A DNA stretch of 46,009 bases from a virus. The translations under genes and the position numbers were made by a program. The notes under the pieces are model-generated. The model saw nothing but the letters and a program-made list of their open reading frames with translations, searched no databases and had not been told where the DNA came from. The stretch covers positions 1 through 46,009 of IMG/VR virus record IMGVR_UViG_3300034108_000621; one strand, given 5' to 3'. Shown piece after piece: positions 37,801-44,594 of this stretch (position 1 is its first letter; each line of letters begins with the position of its first letter).

Positions 37801-38959
37801 GCGCACAAAGCTAGACCCAGATGAGCTTGTCGAAGGTATGACAAGACGAGGCATCTTTGAAAAGAACGTTTTTGTGAACGCTATCCAGGGTCTCGATGAC
37901 TCACTTATTCTTGACGCAAGAGACTTGGAAAAAGCAAAGTTTGGTCAAAAAGTCGGAGCTCGTGTAGCAAGGGCAACACAAATCGCTGGTAAGGTTGGTG
38001 GTGACTTTGCATCTGTATACAGCAACGCAATTCGTGCAGCTCACGCTAACAAGATTATCCAGAGCCGTTCATGGAGGAGCCTTGACGAAGCGCTTGACTT
38101 TGTTGCAGACGAACTAGCAATCTTCCACCCAACTAACAAGAGCCTTGGTTCATTTGAGCGCAGAAACTCTGCAGTAATTAGCTCCTTCTATACCTGGTTG
38201 CGTATGGCGCACGTCATGGCCTTCAAGATGGCAATGGAGAACTCTCGTGAGCTGTATGCAATTAACAACGCTTTGTACTATCTAAACTCACTAAACGGAG
38301 AACAGCCTCAGAGCAGGGGGACATCATTTGCAAACCCAGAAGGTGTTGCAGACTGGTTCCGTTATAGAAGTGGTCAGGTAATCTTGCCTGGCATGACAGA
38401 AGAAGGTGCATTAGGTATTCGTACCCCATTTGCACTCTACGAAGTTGTGAATAACTGGCAGTTTAATTACGACACCGCAAAGAGCTTAAATGAGAATGTT
38501 GCTGGTAGCGCTCAGCAACTAGGTAAGACCCTAGCCAGAATGACGCCGATTGCCTTCCAAACTGGATTTAAGGTTGCAACTGGTAGGGACATAGCCACTG
38601 GACAGACTGTAGCTAGAGAAACTGTTGGTGACTACGCAGCTATTCTTGCAGGGCTATTCCCAGCTGCTACAGGCCCCGCTAGAGGCTTTACACAGACTGA
38701 CTTGCCTGTAGAGATAGGTAAGACAATTGACAAGATTCTTGGGGCTCCTGCGAAGCCTGACACCACAGAGGAGATTACTCCAGACCAGGCTCTTATTGCT
38801 AGATTGAACAACCTACTAGGTGTTGCTGCATTCCAGCCTGAAAGTGAAGCCAGCAAAAAGCGTGCAAAGCAGCTTGAGACTGAGCGTAAAAAGCGTGAGC
38901 GTGAGATAGAATTGCAAAGGCGTAAAGAGCGTCGTCGGAGACGAAGAGAAGGTCAGTAA
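31892..38959 (+). CDS. Giant internal virion / ejection protein (2355 residues)
   Basis: About 15% of the window. The N-terminus is Pro/Thr-rich with a repeated TRGGLPI.P-like element (SGLPLIKP and GGLPIIVP), followed by a hydrophobic stretch (GGATVGVLGGFIDAIS, about 92-107). Most of the rest is long helices. The end is a strongly basic Lys/Arg tail, including RRKERRRRRRE. Position, after two Ala/Gln-rich proteins and at the end of the morphogenesis run, fits a huge injected protein such as T7 gp16 or the large proteins of N4-like phages. I could not find N4-type RNA polymerase motifs or a clear transglycosylase motif. Enzymatic domains may be hidden in the helices. Confidence 0.7.
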   Translation: MAKDNENKPSDRTRSGLPLIKPVAPPAQTTPTVPSPKPPTIDAPKISTGRTRGGLPIIVPSPTKAITPAAPAQKKQTFQQKFEKEVNKQLDAAGGATVGVLGGFIDAISTGLSYGSGKEKAIRELTEKGVITESMRVYLLDKISGPTGANSETVALIPKATVVGTEEADRINKFIEKAAWANATAWTRGEKVNYGLETLFGEKKNYTLDEYVAGITYDIINDPLTFAGSGAVSAVKGLVKGGAAAVKAGTTAALKSEVSREAAMVSRFKQTREAEALPVAKVKEPKVKIKQSEIETARALGVDVASEVERIRRLGTYTTTPIPPTISFGPVKLNLGLVTSSALEAGQKALLSSLRSDLARETLSDVLKGNVSSTAGVVVARQGEEWIVKTSSGENIGTRATKEDAKALAKETKANANSKQVGEVSVDQLPVNAARQTEDGVDAVDVPAEGGGSVQLEKNTPHQATDGSVWIYDGTKVKVFADMDGAQASLVQKAQAPKATVKKTKGVDEYIVRAGDYIETFKTKAEASAAAAAYNTGKVVTPSRVASGKKPALDLTPTPQFTFADLGKGKVTTKEGTVLKKILKKVDELASKTPGRKIRLAMTNQRLLRRIIRDGTLTDSTAMRYLHRALRKDFDNAIKLAKVEGELETPYTLMKTLQATAKDNENINWISSLVSNIVIRVDNSLVPLSKLPERFPNYIKDVPNYVAKQVADKLKQIMDEAATLAKAKDPIARTETKVYDSLVSVFGEDIANQVKATGILKGFSAEANKQFELLEARLLNQYENVTYKNLDELIAGLRNGESVNSDSLLRIFKEIDPENQITKSTLKAMEGGTGTGLRNIFLNEVPQTVADMRVKVAVAGDVSELMKANGISYDDLLAQAIKFMQEPTPVNAIELAGNTSITPEWIQDALSKESASALAQQFSDSISPATGRTWNEGDDMVTLALRESWTNKFNYTQVIEQSEDYIETVSSLGQKVKKVSDQNYVSPNGAVLPNVFTQADEFRMVMKLTALIRARISKGIKSKGKPNVLTPANKLGKEKQLELRNAGADRQIDEFIYQMDQASRLLGILGVRITRLKEANDFTFDAAYKAERAAAKAEGRKPNYNKAADAHFAYVHMGDIFRAFDSTGGRDILRQAFFPVTGPADYDKNTMGFMGFGDAARRVLELDGKESIVDKAEIAEELVTRILSKSEKMKTPTPAFKARQPEIAAAMAEHLLKPETIAALREAHLVKAVASADRWVREAQTISDDVLNSLREGMRAADSVGETSDYVRLEVVRQYLRRLALAGNIFAAQGGRYAEDIFTAYAMQFAQYGKLPLSPDAPAGTIIKILDDQEKSLLRTQLYLLDMHVAPERAQAQAAAGLKYKKPAELEAVQDKLTLAQEQFEEVMSRIGIVRDGGTQEVAAWEKEYQQVKKALEKARKSAAESGIQTFHYQAGTWVPSDQYDPTIARQLAEEMERAYVAGEAGRVARTMVDETPVVPEFKVLSGKKLQEALKRENIILTNARVANSVKHGEEIAAAMSKEIGKYDQVIDDPAVSAMQELQELELKQLSADMDMPPVVHYADEIIPEVMRVDVEFDSFFKGDKAVATGQLAERFSSFRNKEDLIALARKEETSGMLRTSNTAQFLTRIQREYRDTAPADFADALGYAISRGEIPKSVQGVTREIAMKIRPMIGPIRQALSEMNKNGLMNAIERFGLKDFLDPKFDEKSMVQSMESVFEALPFVKAKNIKTDEEQLRLRRLGESLESGLHPIQLFENLVKAISVTKAEQGLAANIVANFGWKNQFNSYKEAVDAGWVAIESAGIGQKSNIINALPSPKDGALFPPEIAGQVGAVVRHWNEMVTKPRNEFVKQVSQWTGLAKVFMTVNRLGYHTLNLVSDLSTAVIRGTSPADMILGTRLASRYIARTLPAEYGGLTDFVAKRTGMATALEQQLRLVTKSWGADADAIAKADAEGFAPTIRLVGAGGNVKRTKLDPDELVEGMTRRGIFEKNVFVNAIQGLDDSLILDARDLEKAKFGQKVGARVARATQIAGKVGGDFASVYSNAIRAAHANKIIQSRSWRSLDEALDFVADELAIFHPTNKSLGSFERRNSAVISSFYTWLRMAHVMAFKMAMENSRELYAINNALYYLNSLNGEQPQSRGTSFANPEGVADWFRYRSGQVILPGMTEEGALGIRTPFALYEVVNNWQFNYDTAKSLNENVAGSAQQLGKTLARMTPIAFQTGFKVATGRDIATGQTVARETVGDYAAILAGLFPAATGPARGFTQTDLPVEIGKTIDKILGAPAKPDTTEEITPDQALIARLNNLLGVAAFQPESEASKKRAKQLETERKKREREIELQRRKERRRRRREGQ

Positions 38960-39192
38960 TGGAAGAACAAAACGATTTTGAAGCCGTAAAGGCTGGAGCT
39001 GCTGTAATGTATTCAGCACTAAACTCTATTTACCAGCTACACGAAGAAACACCGCTAGTAGAGGGTGCTGTGTGTAGGCACTGCAGTAAGATTGCCGACG
39101 CCAATGTAGCTTATCCTTGCCCGACTGTGCAGATTTTGTTTAACGACTTTATTGGTGAAGAATCTACTTCTGAACCTTTGCCCGCTGAATAG
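38959..39192 (+). CDS. Zinc-knuckle protein (77 residues)
   Basis: TAATG-coupled to the giant gene. CRHC at about residues 39-42 and a later Cys (YPCP at 54) give a partial zinc site; a helix precedes it. The end is acidic. Its last 29 bases overlap the convergent minus-strand gene at 39164. Unknown function. Confidence 0.65.
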   Translation: MEEQNDFEAVKAGAAVMYSALNSIYQLHEETPLVEGAVCRHCSKIADANVAYPCPTVQILFNDFIGEESTSEPLPAE

Positions 39193-40186: not shown

Positions 40187-40794
40187 TATGGAGTTCCACC
40201 GTCAACAGCAAAGTTTACAGGTGGGTTACCAAGGGCAGTTTCAACAGCGTTCAACCGAGTGTTCTGAGTAGTGTTTACACCTTCAACCGCAGTAAGCCTG
40301 TTGTTCTGAGTAGTGTTCAAAGAGTCGATGCCATCTAGGCGAGAGGTCTGAGTGCCGTTTACGCTTTCAACAGCGGTAAGACGAGTACCAGCATTGATAC
40401 CCTCAAGGGCAGTTAGGCGACCATCCTGAGTGGTGTTTAGGCTCTCTACAGCCGTAAGGCGGGTGCCAGCATTGATTCCCTCAAGCGATGTCAGCCTGGT
40501 GTTCTGGGTGGTGTTTACACCCTCCACCGCCGTCAGGCGGTTGTTTTGAGTTGTGTTTAAAGTGTCATTGTTATCAGCACGAGTATCAAGTGTGATGAGC
40601 TCAGCTTCAGCAGTGTCTAGTCTGGCATCAAGTGCTACGAGTCCTGCTTCAGCGGTGTCAAGGCGAGCGTCAGCTGCAACTGCCTCAGCGTCAACCTTGT
40701 CCCAGTTTGCGTTGATAACCGAAGTCTCAAAAGGTTGGTTGGTACCGATTACAGCCTTCTTGAGCAAGAGGCGAGTAGTATTGGTATAAGCCAT
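40186..40794 (-). CDS. Coiled-coil fibre protein with repeats (202 residues)
   Basis: A short head (TNQPFETSVINANWDKVDAE) is followed by heptad-like repeats, first ARLDTAEAGL.A-type (about 41-75) and then NTTQNxRLTAVEGx repeats about 15 residues long (about 79-190). This makes a long trimeric coiled coil, as in phage fibres. End GNPPVNFAVDGGTP. The repeated DNA at this locus is due to these codons, not a CRISPR. Confidence 0.74.
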   Translation of the reverse strand: MAYTNTTRLLLKKAVIGTNQPFETSVINANWDKVDAEAVAADARLDTAEAGLVALDARLDTAEAELITLDTRADNNDTLNTTQNNRLTAVEGVNTTQNTRLTSLEGINAGTRLTAVESLNTTQDGRLTALEGINAGTRLTAVESVNGTQTSRLDGIDSLNTTQNNRLTAVEGVNTTQNTRLNAVETALGNPPVNFAVDGGTP

Positions 40795-42105: not shown

Positions 42106-42194
42106 CAGGGGACGGCTGGAAATCTGCTCACAACATCAACCCTGCTAACTTTGACCTATCGCAAGCACCGCTAGCGATGCCCCCCTAGGGGGGC
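42106..42194 (+). ncRNA. Structured 5' leader 1 (CAGGGGACGGCTGGAAA type)
   Basis: Begins with CAGGGGACGGCTGGAAA (42106-42122), which recurs at 43361 and 43756. Later ATCGC...GCGAT and a strong palindrome GCCCCCC/GGGGGGC at 42179-42194 can fold, the latter just before the GGGAGC ribosome site of the 42219 gene. No T-run follows. The 5' word is conserved while the rest differs, so it may bind a common factor. Confidence 0.45.
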
Positions 42195-42218
42195 TTGATA
42201 AATAAACAAGGGAGCATC

Positions 42219-42527
42219 ATGCCACTAACATGGAACGCTGAGAAGTGCGTCGAAGAAGCAAGAAGCGAGAGCGAGAGTGATTACACTGCCTACCTCTGCT
42301 TCTTGATGATTCCAGTAGGCATCAACCACCTCACCGCTGAGAACGTCGATGAATTCTACTGGCGACTATCGCTGTACGAGCGACTATTCGGGAACTTCTA
42401 CGACACCCCCAGAACTAGGGAATTCGTAGAGCTAAGGGTTGGCTACTCAAGCAACGCTAGCAACCTGACTAGGACTCAGTTCATGAAGCAAGTCGAGAAG
42501 CGCTGGTTCAAAGCCAGCGACTTCTAA
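42219..42527 (+). CDS. Hypothetical early protein (102 residues)
   Basis: ATG 42219 is chosen because AAGGGAGC, shared by neighbouring genes, sits before it; ATG 42195 upstream lies in the palindrome. Acidic N-terminus (ECVEEARSESESDY-like), an aromatic region (FYWRLSLYERLFGNFYDTP), and a basic C-terminal helix (FMKQVEKRWFKASDF). Helical, soluble, no known domain. Confidence 0.7.
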   Translation: MPLTWNAEKCVEEARSESESDYTAYLCFLMIPVGINHLTAENVDEFYWRLSLYERLFGNFYDTPRTREFVELRVGYSSNASNLTRTQFMKQVEKRWFKASDF

Positions 42528-42610
42528 GCAACACCGCCCGACCAGCAGACACTGGGGTGCAAGTCCCCAGCGGGCACGATTGGTCAAGTAGGCTAATCAT
42601 CGAAGGGAGC
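42528..42610 (+). ncRNA. Repeated structured RNA element, copy A
   Basis: A GCCCG (42536-42540)/CGGGC (42571-42575) outer pair encloses a hairpin CTGGGG-TGCAAGT-CCCCAG (42552-42570). A second hairpin, GATTGGTC-AAGTA-GGCTAATC (42578-42598), lies just before GAAGGGAGC of the 42615 gene. The same unit occurs at 42814-42898 with five substitutions; four fall in hairpin 2 and all keep pairing through wobble pairs. That supports selection for RNA structure. Function unknown; a cis-acting leader or processing signal is likely. Confidence 0.62.
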
Positions 42611-42614
42611 AGTA

Positions 42615-42815
42615 ATGCCAAGATACGAAGTAAACATGACCGTTGAATTCAGCGGTGAGATTGAAGCAAGCAGTGTGTCTGATGCTGAGCAAAAAGCATG
42701 GACCGCTTGGGGTGAATCCTTTGATAAGCCCCTTACGTACAGCGGGGTCGATAGTATCGACGTCGAAGAAATAGAGGATGAGGACGAGGACGAGGACGAG
42801 GACGAGGAAGAATAG
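42615..42815 (+). CDS. Small acidic-tailed protein (66 residues)
   Basis: MPRYEVNMTVEFSGEIEASS, then VSDAEQKAWTAW helix, similar in layout to the 2124 and 2330 proteins. The end is a run of Asp/Glu (EEIEDEDEDEDEDEEE) coded by a GAGGAC hexanucleotide-like repeat, which can vary in length by slippage. Such tails can mimic DNA or bind basic proteins. Lies between the two structured RNA copies. Confidence 0.68.
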   Translation: MPRYEVNMTVEFSGEIEASSVSDAEQKAWTAWGESFDKPLTYSGVDSIDVEEIEDEDEDEDEDEEE

Positions 42816-42898
42816 CAACACCGCCCGACTAGCAGACACTGGGGTGCAAGTCCCCAGCGGGCACGATTAGCCAAGTAGGCTAGTTATCGAAGGGAGCA
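42814..42898 (+). ncRNA. Repeated structured RNA element, copy B
   Basis: Begins inside the TAG of the acidic-tail gene. GCCCG (42823-42827)/CGGGC (42858-42862), hairpin CTGGGG-TGCAAGT-CCCCAG (42839-42857), and hairpin GATTAGCC-AAGTA-GGCTAGTT (42865-42885) precede GAAGGGAGC of the 42901 gene. Compared with copy A, the stem-2 changes are U-G to C-G, G-U to A-U, U-A to U-G and G-C to G-U, all pairing. The loop AAGTA is unchanged. Confidence 0.62.
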
Positions 42899-42900
42899 TC

Positions 42901-43047
42901 ATGAATACAGAAACAAAATTGCAATGCGGATTATGCAAGCAAGCTGAAGCCCAGTACGAGCTGAGCTTCGGTCCTGGCGGGTTCCACGCAACCGTCAATG
43001 TATGCAAGAAGTGTGCAACCAAGCACGCTGGACCACTAGACAAGTAA
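42901..43047 (+). CDS. Zinc-ribbon miniprotein (48 residues)
   Basis: ATG after AAGGGAGCATC; CGLC at residues 9-12 and CKKC at about 35-38, separated by a strand-rich segment (AQYELSFGPGGFHATV). A clear treble-clef-like spacing. Too short for many gene finders but well supported by ribosome site and pattern. It starts MNTE like the next gene. Confidence 0.68.
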   Translation: MNTETKLQCGLCKQAEAQYELSFGPGGFHATVNVCKKCATKHAGPLDK

Positions 43048-43360: not shown

Positions 43361-43446
43361 CAGGGGACGGCTGGAAAGGTGCGATGCCTGCGGTGCCTAG
43401 TAGATTAGCCGTAATGCCAAACTGGCAGAAACGATAGGAGCAAAAA
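43361..43446 (+). ncRNA. Structured 5' leader 2
   Basis: Starts with CAGGGGACGGCTGGAAA and continues AGGTGCG (23 bases identical to leader 3). TATAAA at 43343-43348 lies 13 bases upstream and could be a -10. Within the leader TGCCA-AAC-TGGCA forms a tight hairpin. The leader also contains a short ORF that ends at the ribosome site of the next gene. Confidence 0.45.
43384..43437 (+). CDS. Possible leader peptide (17 residues)
   Basis: ATG preceded by GGAAAGG, giving MPAVPSRLAVMPNWQKR and a TAG that runs directly into the GGAG of the next gene. Its ribosome site belongs to the leader element, which repeats at 43756, there followed by TTG. It may couple translation to structure of the leader. 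Very short, so coding is uncertain. Confidence 0.3.
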   Translation: MPAVPSRLAVMPNWQKR

Positions 43447-43674
43447 ATGACCAAAAAAGACTACAAGCTAATTGCCCAAGCAATCGCAGACACCTATTGC
43501 GACATTGGCTCAGCTAGCGCAATCGTCGAGAGTATCGCCGAGGCATTAGAGGCTGAGAACCCATTGTTCAACAAAACCAAGTTTCGTGAGGCTTGCGGGG
43601 TTGCTCTACCTGCCAAAAGCGAGGAGCAGAAGTTCATGGATGACCATTTCAAGGTGATAATGGTTCAGGCATAG
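43447..43674 (+). CDS. Small phage protein (75 residues)
   Basis: TAGGAG six bases before ATG. MTKKDYKLIAQAIADTY, then a helix with VESIAEALEAENPLFNKTKF and REACG. This layout is common among small phage early proteins of actinobacteriophages and others, without a known role. The hairpin at 43699 closes the transcript. Confidence 0.72.
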   Translation: MTKKDYKLIAQAIADTYCDIGSASAIVESIAEALEAENPLFNKTKFREACGVALPAKSEEQKFMDDHFKVIMVQA

Positions 43675-43755: not shown

Positions 43756-43940
43756 CAGGGGACGGCTGGAAAGGTGCGTTGCGTGCCCTGCGTGCTAGCT
43801 TGGCAGGGTTAGCCATGCTTGGCATAGCTAGCACCGCAATACTGCTAGACATGCCTTGCCCTGTTGATTCTCAATTTTTGAGAGTTGCGGGGCGGGCTTG
43901 GCTAGCTAAACAACCGATAACCAACCGAAAGGCTAAAAAA
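43756..43940 (+). ncRNA. Structured 5' leader 3
   Basis: CAGGGGACGGCTGGAAA plus AGGTGCG, then a perfect 9-bp inverted repeat GTGCTAGCT (43792-43800) / AGCTAGCAC (43826-43834) with a small ATGC-TTG-GCAT hairpin in its loop. TCTCAA-TTT-TTGAGA follows. An open frame from TTG 43779 runs through to the 43941 gene, but the stems suggest RNA structure rather than coding. No promoter box was certain; readthrough past the 43699 hairpin is possible. Confidence 0.45.
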
Positions 43941-44228: not shown

Positions 44229-44594
44229 ATGAAAATGGATTACAGCGACATAAAGAGCGATGTTTTAGACCACTTCAAGCAACTAACAGAAACCCCTTAC
44301 CCCGAAGATTTGTTGCGAGAGCTGGCGGATTCCGCTTGCCCTGTTTACTATTCGGACATAATCAAGGACTGGCAAGAAATGCCGAACGAATACACCGACA
44401 GTTGGCAAGAGTTCATTGAACCAACCCAAGACACAACAATTTTTAGCCTAATGTCTGCCGATTTGTTCAATTACTACGATGACCAATACCGAACAGCTTT
44501 TGCCGAACTAACCAAGGACATTGAAGAAACCGAAGAAGAGCTAGAAATTGACATAACCAACCCAACCAGCCCGAAAGGATACCAAAATGCCTAA
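44229..44594 (+). CDS. Acidic early protein (121 residues)
   Basis: AAAAGGAGC before ATG. Acidic, helical, with ISLMSADLF-like and Tyr-rich parts (FNYYDDQYRTAF) and a Glu-rich end that continues past ELE into IDITNPTSPKGYQNA. The copy at the start of the window lacks this extension. Bases 44421-44547 are identical to 1-127. Function unknown. Overlaps the next start by 8 bases. Confidence 0.76.
   Translation: MKMDYSDIKSDVLDHFKQLTETPYPEDLLRELADSACPVYYSDIIKDWQEMPNEYTDSWQEFIEPTQDTTIFSLMSADLFNYYDDQYRTAFAELTKDIEETEEELEIDITNPTSPKGYQNA

Follow-up and report, generated by a model that had tools for sequence, protein, structure and literature searches.

The window analysed here, an IMG/VR virus record of 46,009 bases, contains two copies of a structured RNA element that, judged from sequence comparison, consists of a 5-bp helix P1 stacked directly on a 6-bp helix P2, the latter closed by a tRNA-type T-loop. 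The predicted fold is completed by an 11-nt strand before P2, which carries D-loop-like purines (positions 15 and 16), is closed on itself through the pair 13-19 and pairs with the final two T-loop bases in a 2-bp pseudoknot. We are slightly inclined to regard the element as a constitutive tRNA-elbow mimic, which occurs in tailed phages of at least two phyla at up to ~15 copies per genome and marks uncoupled gene starts for a host machine, either the ribosome or RNase P. Neither the T-arm-like module with its pseudoknot nor the wide spread of the element was part of the original prediction for this DNA.

Two copies of the element in the window

The two 85-nt units are located at 42527-42611 and 42814-42898, 287 nt apart, and share 80 of 85 bases, in agreement with the original prediction of two near-identical units with five differences, each before a small gene. 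The region singled out at that time spans both copies and the gene between them, whereas the structured elements proper are confined to 42530-42598 and 42817-42885. A stop codon lies directly 5' of each unit (TAA 42525-42527; TAG 42813-42815), and each unit ends with a Shine-Dalgarno sequence followed by an ATG (42615 for copy 1; 42901 for copy 2). The parts of both copies are as follows.

42528..42535, + strand: copy 1 spacer, 8 nt from the TAA stop of the upstream gene to P1 (sequence, gap statistics)
42536..42575, + strand: copy 1 predicted core, with P1 42536-42540/42571-42575, joining strand 42541-42551, P2 42552-42557/42565-42570 and T-loop 42558-42564
42542..42564, + strand: copy 1 inferred tertiary contacts 42542-42548 (13-19), 42544/42559 (15/30, A/G), 42545-42560 (16-31), 42549-42564 (20-35) and 42550-42563 (21-34), from covariation in relatives except for 16-31, which rests on the tRNA analogy alone
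42576..42577, + strand: copy 1 purine-C (A47 C48) after P1, at the place of tRNA R73 C74
42578..42598, + strand: copy 1 variable hairpin P3, 8 bp, loop AAGTA
42603..42614, + strand: copy 1 Shine-Dalgarno AAGGGAG and spacer (sequence), ATG at 42615
42816..42822, + strand: copy 2 spacer, 7 nt after the TAG stop 42813-42815
42823..42862, + strand: copy 2 predicted core, with P1 42823-42827/42858-42862, joining strand 42828-42838, P2 42839-42844/42852-42857 and T-loop 42845-42851
42863..42864, + strand: copy 2 A47 C48, conserved in relatives
42865..42885, + strand: copy 2 hairpin P3 (folding, alignment of close sequences)
42890..42900, + strand: copy 2 Shine-Dalgarno and spacer (sequence), ATG at 42901

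The covariance model R2, which was trained on these copies, matches the core of copy 1 at 42530-42577 (67.7 bits, E 3.2e-16) and that of copy 2 at 42817-42864 (69.1 bits, E 1.4e-16). Of the five differences, four fall within the second hairpin, P3 (G-C to G-U, U-A to U-G, G-U to A-U and U-G to C-G), and one affects an unpaired base (42543 C/T, model position 14). As first described, all four keep a standard pair; but each is one-sided. They had been taken as good small-sample evidence for a selected RNA structure, an assessment that proved too generous. Pairing-preserving changes between two copies are weak evidence on their own, because by our own reckoning roughly every second random transition in a stem of this kind leaves pairing intact, and the folding energies of the two copies are only 1.4 and 2.0 s.d. 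below those of shuffled sequences (z -1.41 and -1.96). The structure is settled, as far as comparative analysis can do so, by the relatives and not by the pair in the window.

Several further features were observed in this region. The gene between the copies (42615-42815) encodes a 66-aa product ending at its C-terminus in a long acidic Asp/Glu run, for which no PHROG or Pfam match was found; a neighbouring 102-aa protein has a relative only in the contig L001. A strong hairpin at 42501-42519 (CGCTGG TTCAAAG CCAGCG) lies within the final codons of the gene that precedes copy 1. In addition, GGGGACGGCTGGAAA occurs three times on the + strand (42108-42122, 43363-43377 and 43758-43772), each time upstream of a small-gene group, against zero occurrences expected by chance, and is a candidate promoter or operator. 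An intrinsic terminator was rejected, as no T-run follows P3 in the window; stop-codon readthrough was likewise rejected, as the two copies would be read through in different frames and soon reach stops.

Covariation and inferred tertiary contacts in the relatives

The initial pattern retrieved a single contig, the closely related L001, and an early gapped scan returned 42 stretches, in which no element except that of L001 was recognised by eye and many of which resembled tRNA T-arms. In a BLAST of a 421-nt region against phages, the best 20 of 484 records match acidic-repeat coding sequence instead of the element. A pattern of unpaired bases, AGCAGACANNNNNNTGCAAGT, matched 76 viral stretches; 37 of them have at least 5/6 P2 pairs (28 distinct 48-mers, the window's two included), and the remainder of those printed were taken as chance matches. 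In this first alignment P2 was therefore partly selected, whereas P1 was not; P1 was paired in 95.7% of cells, and each of its five pairs is changed on both sides in some copies. With the covariance model R1, additional copies of greater divergence came to light in the same contigs. As a negative control, 41 loci of the earlier pattern scan (L004-L044) gave no match to R1 better than E 0.009. Such a search of viral contigs had been proposed as a check of the original prediction, and it yielded many copies.

All 80 distinct copies of one alignment have P1 paired (100% of cells); the corresponding figures are 99.2% for P2 and 100% for the pairs 20-35/21-34. A second alignment of 82 distinct copies, including annotated phages, has 99.7% of all cells paired, counting 13-19, and exceeds every one of 500 shuffles in each of five measures. 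Scans with free gaps fixed the length of P2 at 6 bp in 29 copies (one pattern) and 38 copies (the other) with full P1; the sole exception, L164, has 5 bp. The hairpin GCCCG/CGGGC around TGCAAGT, originally described as unchanged, is indeed so within the window; it is not static in the family, of which it forms the conserved and strongly covarying core.

Because some loop positions were fixed in the scan patterns, the contacts within the loops were assessed on 52 copies outside every scan pattern and by scans in which the positions concerned were left free. Since the covariance models hold only the P1 and P2 pairs, the signals at 13-19, 15-30, 20-35 and 21-34 were not induced by the models. In the 52 unselected copies, the top twelve pairs by average-corrected mutual information all come from P1, P2, 13-19, 15-30, 20-35 and 21-34, and positions 15/30 are G/U in 39 copies and A/G in 13, with no other combination. 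With 20, 21, 34 and 35 free, 20-35 is paired in 164/164 distinct copies among the matches listed with P1 complete and P2 ≥5/6 (A-U 79, G-C 63, C-G 8, U-A 8, G-U 4 and U-G 2; shuffles ≤114), and in the same 164 listed copies 21-34 is always paired (C-G 161, G-C 3; shuffles ≤162). With 13 and 19 free, 188 of 190 listed copies are paired at 13-19 (C-G 85, A-U 53, G-C 47, U-A 2, G-U 1; shuffles ≤103). These pair counts left out rows without full P1 or with fewer than 5 P2 pairs (12/176 and 18/208 distinct matches among those listed), and the copy counts of these last two free-position scans are to be read as "at least". The phages are related, and the copies are thus non-independent. The covariation, far above shuffled and slid controls and confirmed with the tested positions free in the scan, bears out the original claim of a selected RNA structure; homologues without covariation would have refuted that claim, and the homologues found do covary.

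In 113 copies, the T-loop columns G28, C31, A33 and C36 are invariant (113/113), U29 is present in 112/113 and position 32 is A or G; G16 in the joining strand is also invariant (113/113). In tRNA numbering the loop reads G53, U54, U or G55, C56, R57, A58, N59, N60 (mostly U) and C61, and the column counts of the 113 and 52 copies meet the elbow-base membership test for a tRNA T-loop/D-loop. By analogy with tRNA, we infer that 15/30 is equivalent to the 18/55 contact and 16/31 to the 19/56 contact. The pairing of 16-31 is inferred from the analogy only, because both positions are invariant and do not covary. Among the matches listed, P1 is followed by a purine at 47 in 163/164 copies and by C48 in 163/164, and position +1 is G in 153/164. 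C48 is followed by another C in just 13/124 copies, and position -1 is mostly A.

On the 3' side of the core come first the variable hairpin P3, then usually a Shine-Dalgarno sequence and finally the start codon. P3 has no conserved sequence; among 124 copies examined, 111 have a folding energy < -3, and in 100 of these it starts 0-2 nt after C48. It was not evident in the AT-rich Bacteroidota copies inspected. In eight close sequences 98.4% of the P3 cells are paired and two pairs have both-sided changes, with a covariation score reached by 8/500 shuffles. The stem on which the original prediction laid its stress is thus real by these alignments but is a variable, loosely kept accessory part, with weaker support than the core. 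Complementarity between the T-loop arm and the Shine-Dalgarno sequence is not enriched in 103 copies (mean longest run 3.52 for their own Shine-Dalgarno vs 3.66 for those of other genomes); this comparison does not support a yjdF-like switch, and no Shine-Dalgarno sequestration by the core is predicted.

Distribution and position of the element

BLAST and model searches located the element in the Mycobacterium phages Konstantine, Predator, their relatives and LittleE, and it is also present in many Streptomyces phages including Joe, Endor2 and Nanodon, in the Microbacterium phages LeeroyJenkins and Musetta, in Actinomyces phage xhp1 and in Bifidobacterium phage BA720P3. Gordonia phage Cafasso has the element by sequence, and Rhodococcus phage Madraxi gives a weak match (E 3.1e-4). 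In Bacteroidota, it is found in Riemerella phages and in Flavobacterium phage fF4, where the copy lies just before a DDE transposase gene. Endor2 has 9 copies, Joe 8 and the contig G337 15; another contig (L297, IMG/VR 3300046499_000008) holds 10 copies within 6.6 kb, and of 20 contigs examined with the model one (G350) gave no match. In a survey of Actinomycetota genomes, 1/296 had a match, namely the centre genome itself, although with 20 candidates scored per genome this absence is weak. As far as seen, the element is a phage element.

Position statistics were collected for Konstantine, Predator, Nanodon, Endor2 and Joe, with manually entered gene lists (35 copies at E ≤1e-3). All but one of the 35 copies overlap no CDS and run in the direction of the flanking genes, and 33/35 lie 31-51 nt upstream of a start codon; the exceptions are one Endor2 copy 82 nt from the start and one weak Predator match (39201) inside the annotated gp49. 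The spacing between upstream stop and copy, measured in 34 cases, is at least 6 nt throughout and 6-8 nt in 14. The distance to the start codon also holds when the upstream stop is 32-134 nt away, and thus the element belongs to the downstream gene. At the other loci, where ORFs were called mechanically, the gap from stop to P1 is 7 or 8 nt in 42/78, with TAA, TAG and TGA all used; 9/78 upstream ORFs end <6 nt from P1 or inside it. Downstream ORFs are diverse, with 75 protein clusters among 103. Covariation, strand and position together argue for action in cis on the next gene, and on this comparative basis the element is assigned as a cis-acting structured RNA in the 5' leader of the gene that follows. 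A separate observation concerns Konstantine (L264), where a TTGGGCTAGCC-type palindrome, possibly an operator, recurs ahead of genes whether or not the RNA element is present (gaps 38840-38961, 40568-40653 and 43371-43519).

Function and relation to known RNAs

Docking of 15/30 and 16/31 would present a flat, tRNA-elbow-like surface to host machines that read tRNA, and a general host factor is favoured because the downstream genes and the host phyla are diverse. The leading targets are the ribosome (translation activation) and RNase P (processing), neither of which has been tested. The available part of PMC4919913 lists RNase P, T-boxes and the ribosomal L1 stalk as readers of the elbow. The ribosome seems the most likely reader, in the absence of binding data, and the element may activate and individualise translation where a phage gene lacks translational coupling to its predecessor. 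With no ribosome-binding or expression data, translation activation by a tRNA-elbow mimic acting on the ribosome is put forward tentatively, at somewhat less than an even chance. According to the accessible portion of PMC9142559, tRNA-like leaders or grafted tRNAs upstream of the Shine-Dalgarno sequence raise translation 2- to 6.3-fold, grafted tRNAs activate in vitro, and the yjdF riboswitch leader is itself tRNA-like; changing two D-loop guanines of yjdF brings the effect near background, and a change of the 3' ACCA has little effect. Counted against translation activation are the near-invariant purine-C and the G-C at the base of P1, because they are not predicted by it, and the lack of a copy before the first gene of the window operon (ORF 42195-42527) in the R2 scan. 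Moreover, in the five phages 33/45 gaps of ≥70 nt hold a copy and 12/45 have none at E ≤1e-3, while much shorter gaps cannot hold one.

The same fold may instead serve as punctuation, in which host RNase P mistakes the P1/P2 stack and elbow for a tRNA; cleavage on the 5' side of P1, a few nt past the upstream stop, would split the polycistronic mRNA into units with folded 5' ends. We regard this as possible but unlikely. It would account for the G at +1, the purine and C after P1 (at the frequencies given above for the matches listed), the invariant G19-, G53-, C56- and A58-like bases and the free leader of ≥6 nt before P1. Among plus-strand Rfam matches, that to mascRNA, an RNase P substrate, comes closest, but it scores far under the cut-off (15.6 of 42.5 bits, E 3.1). 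In the leader before gp52 of Predator (L138 3638-3668, 40400-40430), a 12-bp T-loop minihelix without joining strand is followed by GC and another hairpin; it resembles a minimal RNase P model substrate and is the single clear case of its type. In what is available of PMC11143913, RNase P cuts acceptor/T-arm hairpins with G19, G53, A58 and G71 as strong interference positions, and contacts between its protein and the leader extend over positions -8 to -3; the accessible text of PMC4919913 calls the D-loop dispensable for RNase P, and that of PMC12710915 describes cleavage of a pseudoknot with RCCA. However, P1 and P2 sum to 11 bp and fail the test of the 12 bp measured by RNase P, RCC is rarely completed, position -1 is mostly A, and cleavage would not require a fixed distance to the start codon.

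Binding of the elbow by a phage or host protein or by a small molecule (a riboswitch), with many small genes controlled together as an RNA regulon, would suit the leader position, the up to 15 copies in one contig and the invariant unpaired bases; it is nevertheless improbable, as the downstream genes are diverse, sharing between Actinomycetota and Bacteroidota phages makes a single phage protein unlikely, and the core does not appear to sequester the Shine-Dalgarno sequence. There is also little to recommend a 5' stabiliser or exonuclease block shielding each downstream cistron from RNase J or E: the compact pseudoknotted fold with P3 directly behind it would be apt, but the tRNA-specific bases, the start-codon distance and the purine-C remain unexplained, and we give this a slim chance. 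A DNA repeat (a protein-binding site, promoter or recombination site), as the two near-identical copies in the window might suggest, is ruled out by covariation: the stem sequences vary with pairing kept, and 34/35 annotated copies avoid CDSs and are oriented with the flanking genes.

Should the element activate translation, it would serve as a portable and compact means of expression; should RNase P cleave it, bacterial viruses would possess a tRNA-punctuation system. Whichever holds, it matters for understanding the expression of runs of tiny genes in phages. An abundant RNA family has remained unannotated in the well-studied phages Konstantine, Predator, Joe, Endor2 and Nanodon, and its fold, including tertiary contacts readable from covariation, offers a small mimic of the tRNA elbow.

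The original view that the element lies outside the known riboswitch and ribozyme classes holds against Rfam 15, which at gathering scores gave no match in the window, none in the loci of 12 relatives except one real tRNA elsewhere, and none in 8 further loci. A permissive scan of the region returned only a sub-threshold sroD match adjoining the element, a chance match arising from the hairpin at 42501-42519, and nothing above chance at the element itself. A glutamine or downstream-peptide riboswitch, considered because of AAGTAGGC, was rejected, neither family appearing in the permissive scan. ARAGORN found no tRNA in the window, and in 9 loci with copies it called a single one, in Endor2, as tRNA-Arg through added flanking sequence; this copy (44378-44460; L271 2879-2961) is annotated as tRNA-Arg in the record as well, and Sitrop likewise has a tRNA-Arg annotation at the element match. 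With no Rfam match at the element and no ARAGORN call in the window, the test for a tRNA cloverleaf was not met. No description of the element was found in the accessible portion of the open full-text literature.

Among known RNAs, tRNA (RF00005) shares with the element the equivalents of G53-C61, U54, C56, R57 and A58, a stacked helix, here of 11 bp, the purine-C at the place of R73 C74 and, by inference, D-loop purines docking on the T-loop. The element differs in lacking an anticodon arm, a D arm and CCA, in having 5+6 bp instead of the 7+5 bp of acceptor and T stem, in pseudoknotting the T-loop bases 59-60 with the strand before P2, and in sitting inside mRNA leaders. Viral 3' tRNA-like structures, e.g. 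that of TYMV, also combine tRNA mimicry with a pseudoknot, but they occupy the 3' termini of RNA virus genomes. RNase P model substrates (AT1) and mascRNA (RF01684) resemble it in their T-loop hairpin with an acceptor-like helix, whereas the element has 11 bp and mostly no complete RCC, and no cleavage has been shown. The yjdF riboswitch (RF01764; PMC9142559) combines a four-helix junction and ligand pocket with a T-loop/Shine-Dalgarno off state; by contrast, the element has no RF01764 match, no four-helix junction, no signal of Shine-Dalgarno pairing and many copies per genome. The SAS/ESAS repeats of cluster K mycobacteriophages, in which imperfect inverted repeats of 17 bp adjoin a 13-bp SAS, are similarly found upstream of many phage start codons, but their authors, in the part of PMC3203893 available, find little support for RNA pairing of ESAS, whereas pairing of the new element is backed by covariation. 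The repeated intercistronic use in phages is without counterpart among the families compared. Altogether, the RNA family is new, reusing the T-loop elbow while the defining features of tRNA and yjdF are missing, and it probably works like the known tRNA-like leaders.
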